Assembly: GCA_009692985.1 (NCBI GenBank)
Contig: SHYF01000031.1
Coordinates: forward strand, 1-13,698
DNA length: 13,698 nt
Direction of reading: 5' to 3'
Origin: Dehalococcoidia bacterium
Lineage (GTDB): Bacteria > Chloroflexota > Dehalococcoidia > Lucifugimonadales > SHYF01
Shown: positions 3,785 to 9,937 of the stretch, piece after piece
How positions within the stretch are numbered: position 1 is the stretch's first letter
Layout: each line of letters begins with the position of its first letter
Made by a program: the position numbers and the translations under genes
Notes under the pieces: generated by a model
Seen by the model: only the letters and a program-made list of their open reading frames with translations
What the model was told of the DNA's origin: nothing
Database searches by the model: none

Positions 3785-3808
3785 TCGGTACCTCCTGGTA
3801 TGGGTGCG

Positions 3809-3964
3809 TGATGAAAAACCTCTTCGACCATCCCCCTGACCCCCTTTCCTTCGCTACGCTCAAGGACAGGCTCTAGCCAGGAAGGGGGTGACAGAGATGT
3901 CTGAGGGATACCCCCAGACCCCCACCAAAGGAGCTTAGCCCCTCTAGACTCCCCCTTTTCAGCA
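3809..3964 (+). repeat. Dispersed GC-rich multi-hairpin repeat, copy 1
   Basis: About 155 bases in the gap between the divergent DinB-like and cysteine synthase genes. Three inverted repeats follow one another: CCCCCTTTCC (3840-3849) with GGAAGGGGG (3880-3888); TCTGAGGG-ATA-CCCCCAGA (3900-3918, one mismatch); and AGGAGC-TTA-GCCCCT. The ends resemble terminal inverted repeats: TGATGAAAA on the left and TTTTCAGCA on the right, one mismatch. The same unit recurs near 8900 and 9814, and a diverged part near 10685. No coding potential seen. Confidence 0.88.
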
Positions 3965-5154: not shown

Positions 5155-6303
5155 ATGACAACCCACCCTCTCAAGAACAGCCCTTGCGGTAAGTTGGTGC
5201 CGGTCAGCAATGGGCAAATGGCATTCGTTCCCGCGCCACTACCTAGAAGCATCGCCGTTAGTAATGAACTGGTCTATAAACTCGACAGAGCATCCCAGGC
5301 AGTTGCCATGCTTGCAGGTATAGGGGAAACGATTCCTAACCCTCATCTCCTAATTCTCCCGTTCGTGCGACGAGAGGCGATACTCTCTTCTCGTATAGAA
5401 GGTACACAAGCGTCATTGTCTGACCTATTCATACACGAAGCTTCAGGTAGACGTCAAGCAAAGGGTGACGTAAACGAGGTGATAAACTATATAGCGGCGA
5501 TGGGCCATGGCATAGAACTGCTTGTCAAGTTGCCAATCTGCGTCCGACTTCTGAACGAAATACATCTAGTGCTGCTGCAAGGAGTAAGGGGACAGGAACA
5601 ACACCCCGGCGAACTGCGTAATGAGATTGTCTGGATCGGGTCTGAGCATACGCCCATTAGTGAAGCACGCTATGTTCCGCCTCCCCCCGACATTGTACGT
5701 GACCTCATGGAAGACCTAGAAAGGTTTGCTAATGAAGAGTTAAAACTGCCTCCATTGATTCAATGTGCACTACTTCATTACCAATTTGAGACTATCCATC
5801 CATACCTTGATGGAAACGGCCGCATAGGCAGGCTGCTAATAACGCTGTTCCTTTACTGGAAAGGCATGTTGCCTAAGCCACTTCTTTATCTTAGCGCGTA
5901 TTTTGAACGGACTCGTATCAACTATTACGACCAACTATTGAATCTAAGCGCAACAGGAGATTGGGAAGCGTGGCTGAATTACTTCTTTGACGGAGTGTAC
6001 GAGCAAGCACAAGACGCCATTAGACGCATACGCCGTATTCGGGAGGTACAAGATAAGTACAAAGCTTTGTTACTAGAGCATCATGAGACAGCTAATGCTT
6101 TGCGTCTTGTCGACGGACTGATGGCAACTTCGTTCACGTCTGTAGGTACCGCTGCGCGGATACTGGGCGTAACTCATGCTGGAGCTAGTGGTATTCTTGA
6201 AAGACTTCGGGCTATCGGCATCGTAACGAAGTTAGAGAACATTTGGCCTCGGCTTTACGTGGCATCGGAACTGTTGGATGCAATCGATGCACCTGTCTCA
6301 TGA
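5155..6303 (+). CDS. Fic-family protein (probable AMP transferase) with C-terminal winged helix
   Basis: Fic enzymes usually transfer AMP from ATP to a hydroxyl side chain of a target protein. Seen: an N-terminal Fic_N-type region, then SSRIEG (78-83), which fits the inhibitory [S/T]xxxE motif that blocks ATP binding in self-inhibited Fic proteins. The catalytic motif HPYLDGNGRIGR (215-226) is complete, with H215 and both glycines intact. A C-terminal region with TSVGTAARILGVTHAGASGILERL looks like a DNA-binding helix-turn-helix. The 382-residue length is usual for this stand-alone architecture. Start: ATG at 5155, with GGAG upstream. Base composition is visibly lower in GC than its neighbours (24 of 60 bases in 5701-5760, against 41 of 60 in 4561-4620), suggesting recent transfer. 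No antitoxin-like partner gene flanks it. Family is certain; target unknown. Confidence 0.95.
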   Translation: MTTHPLKNSPCGKLVPVSNGQMAFVPAPLPRSIAVSNELVYKLDRASQAVAMLAGIGETIPNPHLLILPFVRREAILSSRIEGTQASLSDLFIHEASGRRQAKGDVNEVINYIAAMGHGIELLVKLPICVRLLNEIHLVLLQGVRGQEQHPGELRNEIVWIGSEHTPISEARYVPPPPDIVRDLMEDLERFANEELKLPPLIQCALLHYQFETIHPYLDGNGRIGRLLITLFLYWKGMLPKPLLYLSAYFERTRINYYDQLLNLSATGDWEAWLNYFFDGVYEQAQDAIRRIRRIREVQDKYKALLLEHHETANALRLVDGLMATSFTSVGTAARILGVTHAGASGILERLRAIGIVTKLENIWPRLYVASELLDAIDAPVS

Positions 6304-6354: not shown

Positions 6355-6438
6355 ATGCAACAAGCTTCCCAGAACGGGTATCCACTCTCATGCTACAATA
6401 GATGCGTTTCCCAACCTGACCCAGGCCTAACCCAGTAA
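6355..6438 (+). other. Possible short leader ORF between fic and selD
   Basis: ATG at 6355 follows GGAGG (6341-6345) with nine bases between, and reads 27 codons to TAA, stopping seven bases before the selD start. A second ATG at 6348 in another frame reads 16 codons. Neither peptide is recognisable, and the selD -10 box lies inside them, so a leader peptide is possible only if transcription comes from upstream. It may be a gene remnant. Confidence 0.15.
6391..6399 (+). promoter_or_regulatory. Extended -10 promoter candidate for selD
   Basis: TGC-TACAAT (6391-6399) is a good extended -10 element, five of six in the hexamer. No convincing -35 box sits 17 bases upstream. The transcript would start near 6406, about 40 bases before the selD ATG. 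Confidence 0.4.
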
Positions 6439-6445
6439 GGAGCCT

Positions 6446-7492
6446 ATGCCCCAGGAATCCATCCGCCTCACCAGCCTGGCCCATTGCGCGGGCTGAGCCT
6501 CCAAGTACAGTCCTGAGGACCTGGCGCAGGTTCTGCGCCAGCTACCAACGATCACCGCCCCGGACCTGCTGGTCGGGACGGAGACAGGCGATGACGCTGC
6601 TGTTTACCGCCTGACGGACGACCTTGCCCTGGTGCAGACGGTGGACTTTTTTCCTCCCATAGTAGACGACCCCGACCACTTTGGCGCGATTGCAGTGGCC
6701 AACGCCGTAAGCGATGTATACGCCATGGGTGGCCGGCCTCTGCTAGGGCTGAACATTGTGGCTTTTCCCATGGAGCTGTCCAAGGACATAGTGGCCAATA
6801 TCTTGAAAGGCGGCTACCGAAAAGCCGCCGAGGCCGGCCTCCTTATCGTGGGCGGTCACACAATAGACGACAAGGAGCCAAAATATGGCCTGGCCGTAAC
6901 CGGCCTGATCCGGCCCGGCGAGCAGGTGACCAACCGCAACGCCCGGCCCGGAGATGTGCTGGTGCTCACCAAGCCCATCGGCACAGGTATAATCACCACC
7001 GCAGGGAAGAACGGCGTGGTGAAGGAAGCGGTGCTGGCCAACACCATCGCCGTCATGGAAATGCTGAACAAGGGCGCTTCGGAGGCAATGATGCATGTGG
7101 GAGTCAACGCATGCACGGACGTCACGGGCTACGGGCTGCTGGGCCACATGAAACCCATGATGACAGCCAGCGGCACCTCTGCCCGCATCTTTTGGTCGAA
7201 AATACCTTTGCTGCCAGGCGTCATGGAGCTTGCAAAAGAGGGAATCGCCCCCGGTGGCACCCAGAGGAACCTGGCCTCACTGGGGCCCAAGGTGAAATAC
7301 CATGCGTCGCTTTCCCAGGAGGCGAGGGTTATCCTGAGCGACGCGCAGACCTCCGGCGGGCTGTTGATTTCAGTGCCACGGGAGCGGCTGGAACGTCTCA
7401 TGGATGAGATGGAGAAACACGGCGTTGCTGGCACGGCAATCATCGGGGAGGTGTTCGCAGGAAACGCCGGGACAATCCAGGTGCTTCCGTAG
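6446..7492 (+). CDS. selD: Selenide, water dikinase (selenophosphate synthetase) containing selenocysteine, in-frame UGA
   Basis: SelD makes selenophosphate from selenide and ATP, the selenium donor for selenocysteine and selenouridine synthesis. The frame opens with ATG at 6446, just after AAGGAG, and reads IRLTSLAHCAG, then TGA at 6494-6496 (codon 17), then ASKYSPEDLAQVLRQLP. Codon 17 aligns with the catalytic Cys17 of E. coli SelD, and the conserved Lys20 is present. TGA therefore most likely encodes selenocysteine rather than stop. The rest is a complete SelD: GDDAAVYRL, GGHTIDDKEPKYGLAVTG, CTDVTGYGLLGH and QTSGGLL. The total of 348 residues matches the 347 of E. coli. A hairpin resembling a bacterial SECIS lies downstream of the TGA. 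It is followed 30 bases later by the JAMM gene, probably in one transcript. A start-to-stop search that treats TGA as stop would lose the first 62 codons, including the active site. Confidence 0.95.
6494..6496 (+). other. selD: In-frame TGA read as selenocysteine (Sec17 of SelD)
   Basis: The codon occupies the active-site position that is Cys in E. coli SelD, inside a CAG-U-ASK context with a neighbouring Cys14 and the conserved Lys20. SelD proteins with Sec at this site are well known in Sec-decoding bacteria. Homology continues on both sides of the codon without a gap. Confidence 0.9.
6521..6541 (+). promoter_or_regulatory. Bacterial SECIS-like hairpin in selD
   Basis: CTGGCGCAG-GTT-CTGCGCCAG forms a perfect nine-pair stem. 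It can also be drawn as seven pairs closing the loop AGGTTCT, which resembles the E. coli fdhF SECIS top (a GGUCU-containing loop closed by GC-rich pairs). The loop guanines lie about 33-34 bases after the TGA, towards the far end of the range usual for bacterial SECIS elements, where SelB would bind. Confidence 0.75.
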
Positions 7493-7522: not shown

Positions 7523-7921
7523 ATGCTGGAGATAGAGAAGCAATACCTTGACCAGATGGTGGCCCACTCGTTGGAGGACAACCCCAACGAGTGCTGCGGA
7601 ATCCTCGCGGGGCCTGGTGGTAAAGTCGTGCATCTGTACCGGATGACCAACACTGAGCACAGCCCGTACAGGTACAACATGGACGCCAAAGAGCTGTATC
7701 TGACCTACCGGCAGATCGAGGACAAGAAGTGGGACCTGGTAGCCATCTACCACTCGCACACCCACTCGCCGGCGTATCCATCTACCACCGACATCCGTTT
7801 GGCCACCTGGCCGGAGGCATACTACATCCTGGTGTCGCTGATGGAAGAGGGCAACCCACTGGTGAAAGCCTACAGGATTACGGAGGGGCAGGTGAAGGAA
7901 GAGGAGCTGAGGGCTGTATAG
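7523..7921 (+). CDS. JAMM/MPN+ (Mov34/PAD-1, M67) metalloprotease
   Basis: Zinc isopeptidase of the prokaryotic JAMM family. Members cleave C-terminal extensions or adducts from ubiquitin-like sulfur carriers, as Mec does for CysO-cysteine in Mycobacterium tuberculosis. All catalytic positions are present: E23 in NECCG, then H77-S-H79, seven residues, S87, two residues, D90, an exact HxHx7SxxD motif. The length of 132 residues is normal for the stand-alone domain. Start: ATG at 7523, with GGAGAG 12 bases upstream, a long but usable spacing. It follows selD by 30 bases and is probably co-transcribed. No sulfur carrier (MoaD, ThiS or CysO-like) gene is in the window. Family is certain; its role in cysteine, molybdopterin or thiamin sulfur transfer is inference. 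Confidence 0.93.
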   Translation: MLEIEKQYLDQMVAHSLEDNPNECCGILAGPGGKVVHLYRMTNTEHSPYRYNMDAKELYLTYRQIEDKKWDLVAIYHSHTHSPAYPSTTDIRLATWPEAYYILVSLMEEGNPLVKAYRITEGQVKEEELRAV

Positions 7922-8881: not shown

Positions 8882-8899
8882 TAGCAACCCTTAGCAGGG

Positions 8900-9054
8900 T
8901 GCTGAAAAACTCTATCGACCATCCCCCTGACCCCGTTTCCTTCGGCCTACTCAGGACAGGCTCTGGCCAGGAAGGGGGAATAGACCTTAGGTTTGGGGGA
9001 TGTGCCCCCAAACCTTGTGCCAACGGGGCTTCGCCCCTCTGGACTCCCCTATTG
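8900..9054 (+). repeat. Dispersed GC-rich multi-hairpin repeat, copy 2
   Basis: Shares with copy 1 the order GCTGAAAAAC, TCGACCATCCCCCTGACCCC, TCAGGACAGGCTCTGGCCAG, GAAGGGGG, a G5/C5 hairpin, and GGGGCTTCGCCCCTCTGGAC. Its middle hairpin is longer, AGGTTTGGGGG-ATGTG-CCCCCAAACCT (8989-9015), 11 perfect pairs, and differs from the other copies on both sides of the stem. The right end lacks the TTTTCAGCA of copy 1. It fills the convergent gap between the oxidoreductase and the transporter. Confidence 0.88.
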
Positions 9055-9780: not shown

Positions 9781-9813
9781 TATTCCTCAACCTTCAGTTT
9801 CCTGCTAATCTGG

Positions 9814-9937
9814 TGATCAAAACACCCTTCGACCATCCCCCTGTCCCCCTTCCTAGCCAGGAATGGGGGTGAGAGGTAAATCTGGGGGATACCCCCAGAC
9901 CCCCACCAAAGGGGCTGTGCCCCTCTGGACTCTCCTT
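9814..9937 (+). repeat. Dispersed GC-rich multi-hairpin repeat, copy 3 (shorter form)
   Basis: Starts with TGATCAAAA and CTTCGACCATCCCCCTGTCCCC, then goes directly to TAGCCAGGAATGGGGG. It lacks the roughly 24-base inner segment containing GGACAGGCTC that copies 1 and 2 share. The second hairpin is perfect: TCTGGGGG-ATA-CCCCCAGA (9881-9899). The third, AGGGGC-TGT-GCCCCT, is also perfect, followed by CTGGACT. It lies between the transporter start and the F420 reductase stop. Confidence 0.88.

Follow-up and report, generated by a model that had tools for sequence, protein, structure and literature searches.

A selD gene with one in-frame TGA

The window analysed here, a stretch of 13,698 nucleotides, is a single contig (G000:C31) of a 1.3-Mb MAG that is 71% complete and comprises 128 contigs. 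It carries a gene for selenide water dikinase (selD), followed by a JAB/MPN-domain gene (Table 1). The selD frame contains a single TGA. Its read-through product, which begins MPQESIRLTSLAHCAGUASKYSPEDL, is a single-domain protein and reaches 379.4 bits against TIGR00476 (cut-off 125) and 364.2 bits against NF002098 (cut-off 299). The SelD proteins of E. coli (PDB 3u0o) and Aquifex aeolicus (2yye, 2zod, 2zau) are full-length homologues with 268 and 238 bits, respectively. In the end-to-end alignment with E. coli SelD, residue 17 falls on Cys17 and Lys20 on Lys20, so that the TGA stands at the catalytic position with the lysine kept, just as had been proposed from the first inspection of the DNA. 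Membership of the SelD family is indicated by the full-length scores above the curated cut-offs and by the catalytic Cys/Sec17 together with Lys20; this UxxK arrangement is listed as the SelD motif in the excerpted table of PMC13188914. Around the active site the two proteins differ: E. coli SelD has Cys17 and Cys19, whereas the window SelD has the predicted Sec17, Ser19 and an additional Cys14.

Table 1. Features of the selD locus, in positions of the window.
Feature	Position	Strand	Remarks
AAGGAG, Shine-Dalgarno-like	6437..6442	+	3 nt before ATG; direct sequence reading
selD, selenide water dikinase, one TGA read through	6446..7492	+	348 residues
Cys14 codon, TGC	6485..6487	+	3 residues ahead of Sec17, CxxU motif
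Predicted Sec17 codon, TGA	6494..6496	+	matches the E. coli Cys17 position
Hairpin B, between UGA and hairpin A	6510..6520	+	4 bp (GTCC-TGA-GGAC); weak alone, z -1.3 to -0.7
Hairpin A, SECIS-type	6521..6541	+	9-bp stem with GUU loop, the latter 33 nt past UGA
JAB/MPN-domain gene, directly 3' of selD	7523..7921	+	PF14464, 80 bits

Sec-containing selD is a kind of gene already known. Excerpts of PMC4918011 describe a Sec-SelD whose in-frame UGA precedes a putative SECIS in Dehalogenimonas alkenigignens (DEALK_04975), a member of the same class whose genome also has selC and genes for Sec synthesis and insertion; it belongs to a different lineage within the class and is likened to the window gene by description. 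Three selenoproteins of three families are given for Chloroflexi in excerpts of PMC1794560, which also mention Sec-to-Cys changes in SelD, and bacterial SECIS elements were found in Sec-SelD genes by RNAz (excerpts of PMC4561486).

A SECIS-type hairpin downstream of the TGA

Hairpin A folds with an energy of -15.5 kcal/mol (z -5.3), and none of 200 shuffles was equally stable. Of the 27,356 stretches of 21 nt tested across the two strands of the window, none folds more stably, and only the complement of hairpin A equals it. Against dinucleotide shuffles, longer stretches of 52 and 67 nt were unexceptional, with z -1.6 and -1.0, respectively, and none of the Rfam families scored above its threshold within the window. 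When codons were redrawn according to the gene's own usage with the amino acids fixed, the window selD gave z -3.3 and -3.1 in 24-nt segments that begin 22 and 25 nt past the UGA, respectively. Hairpin A is more stable than amino acids and codon usage demand.

The original prediction had placed a perfect hairpin with an AGGTTCT top loop about 33 bases downstream of the TGA. The hairpin proved stable and SECIS-like; the loop had to be revised, as the predicted fold leaves only the three GUU nucleotides inside AGGTTCT unpaired. The spacing is correct for the loop but not for the base of the hairpin, which starts 24 nt after the UGA. In E. coli fdhF, the SECIS loop lies about 18 nt from the UGA. 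For bacterial SECIS elements, excerpts of PMC13188914 give a loop of 3-9 nt, a stem of 4-16 bp, a spacing of 16-37 nt, a G at loop position 1 or 2 and an energy of at most -7.5. Hairpin A lies within every published limit of this consensus (bSECISearch model) quoted there, its loop being close to the upper bound of the spacing range.

We compared the hairpin with that of relatives from the same order, from the class and from a set of named genomes. Across 47 distinct order genes the synonymous-codon fold test gave a mean z of -1.9 at the hairpin (24-nt segment, 22 nt after the UGA) versus 0.0 in the same segment of eight genes with Cys at position 17. From about 34 nt after the UGA onward the order genes stayed near zero, small dips aside. 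The arms also covary: in the order a gene's own 3' arm paired at 0.771 compared with 0.693 for swapped arms (sd 0.011, maximum of 1000 swaps 0.730), and in the class set at 0.689 compared with 0.617, in a control that leaves the kinship between genes in place. Pair 29-41 was occupied by CG in 19, TA in 6, TG in 4, GC in 2, GT in 1, AT in 1 and other combinations in 14 of the 47 order genes. An approximate scan with the SECIS rules was passed by 40/47 order, 64/74 named and 70/98 class Sec genes and is not specific, since Cys genes pass too (4/8). At z <= -1.5, Cys genes showed hairpin A in two and hairpin B in three of eight cases. Pair counts in a fixed register separated Sec genes (order, 6.9 of 9) from Cys genes (5.4 of 9) poorly, and we therefore relied on the synonymous-codon test.

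The active site is lost in gene calling

Under translation table 11 the open part of the frame shrinks to 6632-7492 (286 amino acids). The same cut affects the databases: among the best 120 of 8000 scored proteins, all 120 start downstream of residue 17. Gene callers thus truncate the protein, as had been expected, and reading through the TGA corrects a systematic annotation error by which the SelD active site is cut off.

The mechanically called frame and the equally shortened database entries would also fit a selD pseudogene or a true start after the stop. We give this explanation a slim chance. A protein starting after the stop would be without the catalytic residue and without Lys20, relatives keep the N-terminal SIRLTSLAHCAG-U-ASK segment around the TGA, and the surplus stability of the hairpin argues against both a pseudogene and a late start.

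The genome encodes selenocysteine machinery

If the TGA specifies selenocysteine, as we prefer, the organism should be able to decode it. This capacity had been predicted, and a search of the window's own genome for selA, selB and selC recovered all three: selA on G000:C32 (571 bits, cut-off 268), selB on G000:C61 (350 bits, cut-off 242) and a tRNA-Sec with anticodon TCA (UCA) on G000:C56 (65.6 bits, cut-off 47). Two other genes of this genome carry a TGA at a redox position and are likely further selenoprotein genes, namely a peroxiredoxin (FTGG-U, TxxU; L287, 1426-1926, minus strand) and a TlpA-like protein (W-U-PVC, UxxC; L290, 767-1405, plus strand). Their motifs agree with the excerpted table of PMC13188914. 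No selenouridine synthase (TIGR03167) turned up in the 71%-complete genome, and a molybdopterin-oxidoreductase match (PF04879) has no stop inside.

The TGA might instead be read as another amino acid or passed by plain read-through, and non-Sec read-through of a UGA has been described for SPS1 in insects (excerpts of PMC4561486). The presence of selA, selB and tRNA-Sec in the genome, together with at least two other genes with TGA at redox-active positions, speaks against such a reading, whose chance we consider slimmer still.

We thus favour, with a probability of roughly 0.96, a bacterial selD gene with a predicted selenocysteine at the catalytic Cys17 position, its UGA probably being decoded via hairpin A. 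Several sequence characters of bacterial selenoprotein genes were found here: an in-frame UGA with Sec and Cys homologues at the same position, a SECIS-type hairpin within the published limits, and selA, selB and selC in the genome. By the known pathway, SelB with Sec-tRNA-Sec would bind hairpin A and decode the UGA as Sec. The SelD product would then make the selenophosphate from which SelA forms Sec for SelD itself, and translation should halt at codon 17 when selenium is absent.

The TGA is conserved in relatives

We searched 59 genomes of the order, including the window's own. SelD exceeded the cut-off in 45 of them with 47 matches, each of which holds one TGA. SelB was over the cut-off in 50 and selA in 48 genomes; for tRNA-Sec the count of 52/59 is an upper limit, with 5/14 control genomes also over the cut-off and several matches per genome. 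SelD did not reach the cut-off in four genomes that do have selA and selB (G029, G037, G039, G051), while of the genomes with SelD two gave no selA (G024, G035) and one no selB (G020) over the cut-off. All seven are draft or reconstructed genomes, and we therefore read the gaps as incompleteness, an explanation that is unproven.

In the class, 208 of 294 genomes had SelD over the cut-off. Among the matches listed, at least eight there are without a stop, and all eight have TGC. Alignment of relatives at position 17, as originally suggested, gave TGA in 229 and TGC in 8 of 237 readable loci (duplicates included), the TGC loci having been fetched on purpose. For the named genomes, 79 of the best 80 of 195 loci reach codon 17, and TGA is present in 79/79. 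Although TGC and TGT are one base from TGA and eight class genes have TGC, the chance of a sequencing or assembly error is negligible: all 47 order matches carry one TGA, which therefore excludes an assembly error, and the 229 TGA loci come from many separate assemblies, including that of the same-genus relative (L069 and L098, whose selD readings agree). These data further support a dependence of the sampled SAR202-type Dehalococcoidia order on selenium-made SelD.

On a tree of 226 rows the Sec/Cys state changes at least four times. In two genomes of one family (G147 and G314) a Sec SelD coexists with a Cys SelD (L216 with L212; L215 with L211), and the Cys copies L211 and L212 are also without Cys14. 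One SelD match (L217, G191:C118) has one TGA and one TAA inside, which may reflect decay, an error or a frame problem.

Cys14 and Cys19 in Sec-SelDs

The original prediction further proposed a redox-like CAGU pair of Cys14 and Sec17. Cys14 is present in 42/47 order genes and absent in five, the CxxU form had been reported before, and its redox role remains predicted. In the class set, which partly consists of the same order, Cys14 occurs in 58/98 genes, and in the named set in 6/74. Cys19 shows counts of 0/47, 17/98 and 53/74 in the order, class and named sets, respectively. Among 219 distinct Sec-SelDs, 106 have only Cys14, 70 only Cys19 and 43 neither; none has both, compared with about 34 expected if the two were independent. 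In a FastTree phylogeny built from 226 rows, Cys14 changes state 12 times and Cys19 five times. We also considered a correlated swap of Cys14 and Cys19 and dropped it: independent pairs showed no joint change and were too few for significance.

CxxU SelDs were reported in 2008, making up about 5.6% of single-domain Sec-SelDs and occurring also in Ndh-SelD fusions (excerpts of PMC2398784). The CxxU/CxxC SelDs of the Global Ocean Sampling described there have the Cys three residues before the Sec/Cys, as does the window SelD. In contrast to this minority among the Global Ocean Sampling Sec-SelDs, CxxU is the common form in the sampled order.

Two candidate SECIS positions among selD genes

A new-looking by-product of the comparison is a two-position pattern among the 219 distinct Sec-selD genes; a search of open-licence papers found neither two SECIS positions nor a second hairpin reported for selD. 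The synonymous-codon profile of the named and class sets peaks a second time in segments starting 4-7 nt after the UGA. Classified by fold at z <= -1.5, 69 genes have only the distal hairpin A and 53 only the proximal hairpin B, while 59 have both and 38 have neither. Control segments further downstream passed this threshold in 15/219 and 18/219 genes. The joint occurrence of A and B (59 genes, about 65 expected) is close to chance, and hairpin B is therefore not tied to A.

The loop signature N?G[GU] was found in the A loops of 67/69 A-only genes and of 55/59 genes with both hairpins, and in the B loops of 10/69 and 10/59, respectively. The extra proximal hairpin in distal-type genes is thus mostly without the SelB loop signature. 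B-only genes have the signature in the B loop in 45/53 and in the A region in 11/53 cases. This contrast was steady at thresholds of -1, -1.5 and -2 and weaker at -2.5 for B-only genes (24 vs 17 of 40). The encoded residues differ as well: QV[LIM] occupies positions 11-13 after Sec in 63/69 A-only genes and in 54/59 genes with both hairpins, and in 4/53 B-only genes. Labels based on the signature (113 distal, 65 proximal and 41 unclear, the last including 20 of the 47 order genes) have the link to QVL partly built in, and labels from fold z-scores only gave the same QVL contrast at four thresholds. QVL is kept in 4/8 Cys genes, which would fit a remnant of a distal SECIS. With the signature-based labels, a FastTree tree over 177 rows needs at least 15 switches of the SECIS position, compared with about 51 for shuffled labels, and the figure of 15 may be inflated by the tree method and noisy labels.

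A single fixed register for hairpin B in the order was tried and rejected, own arms pairing at 0.519 and swapped arms at 0.506 (sd 0.007), with a better value of 0.579 after a slide of +1. The proximal hairpin, if real, is without one shared register.

Comparison with relatives suggests that the hairpin has moved between two positions. The fuller reading is tentative and, in our estimate, rather unlikely: the selD SECIS would be movable, with its loop either about 17-18 nt or about 34 nt past the UGA and many switches between lineages; some distal genes would have a proximal spacer hairpin selected at the RNA level; and residues 11-13 would follow the RNA, with QVL in distal and mostly other residues in proximal genes. 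As a guess, hairpin B in genes with both hairpins might take up the additional 11-19 nt in its own fold, so that the distal SECIS comes to lie at the working distance of SelB. If the two-position pattern holds, selD offers many natural pairs that share the UGA but differ by about 16 nt in their distance to the SECIS, some having a second hairpin and others none, and the tolerance of SelB for spacing would become directly testable.

Neighbourhood of selD and other features of the window

Among 152 loci with sufficient flanking sequence (duplicates counted), 19 have a JAB/MPN gene just downstream of selD, and cysK is near selD in nine loci. A sulphur or selenium link of these neighbours is a guess. 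In the window a Fic/DOC family gene (5155-6303; PF13784, PF02661) lies between cysK and selD; among the loci compared, whose flanks are limited, this is the only Fic/DOC match beside selD. The window also contains an interspersed intergenic repeat in three partly matching copies (3808-3955, 8899-9050 and 9813-9936), built of blocks of 46, 71, 31 and 26 nt that are 78-96% alike and rich in GGGG/CCCC.
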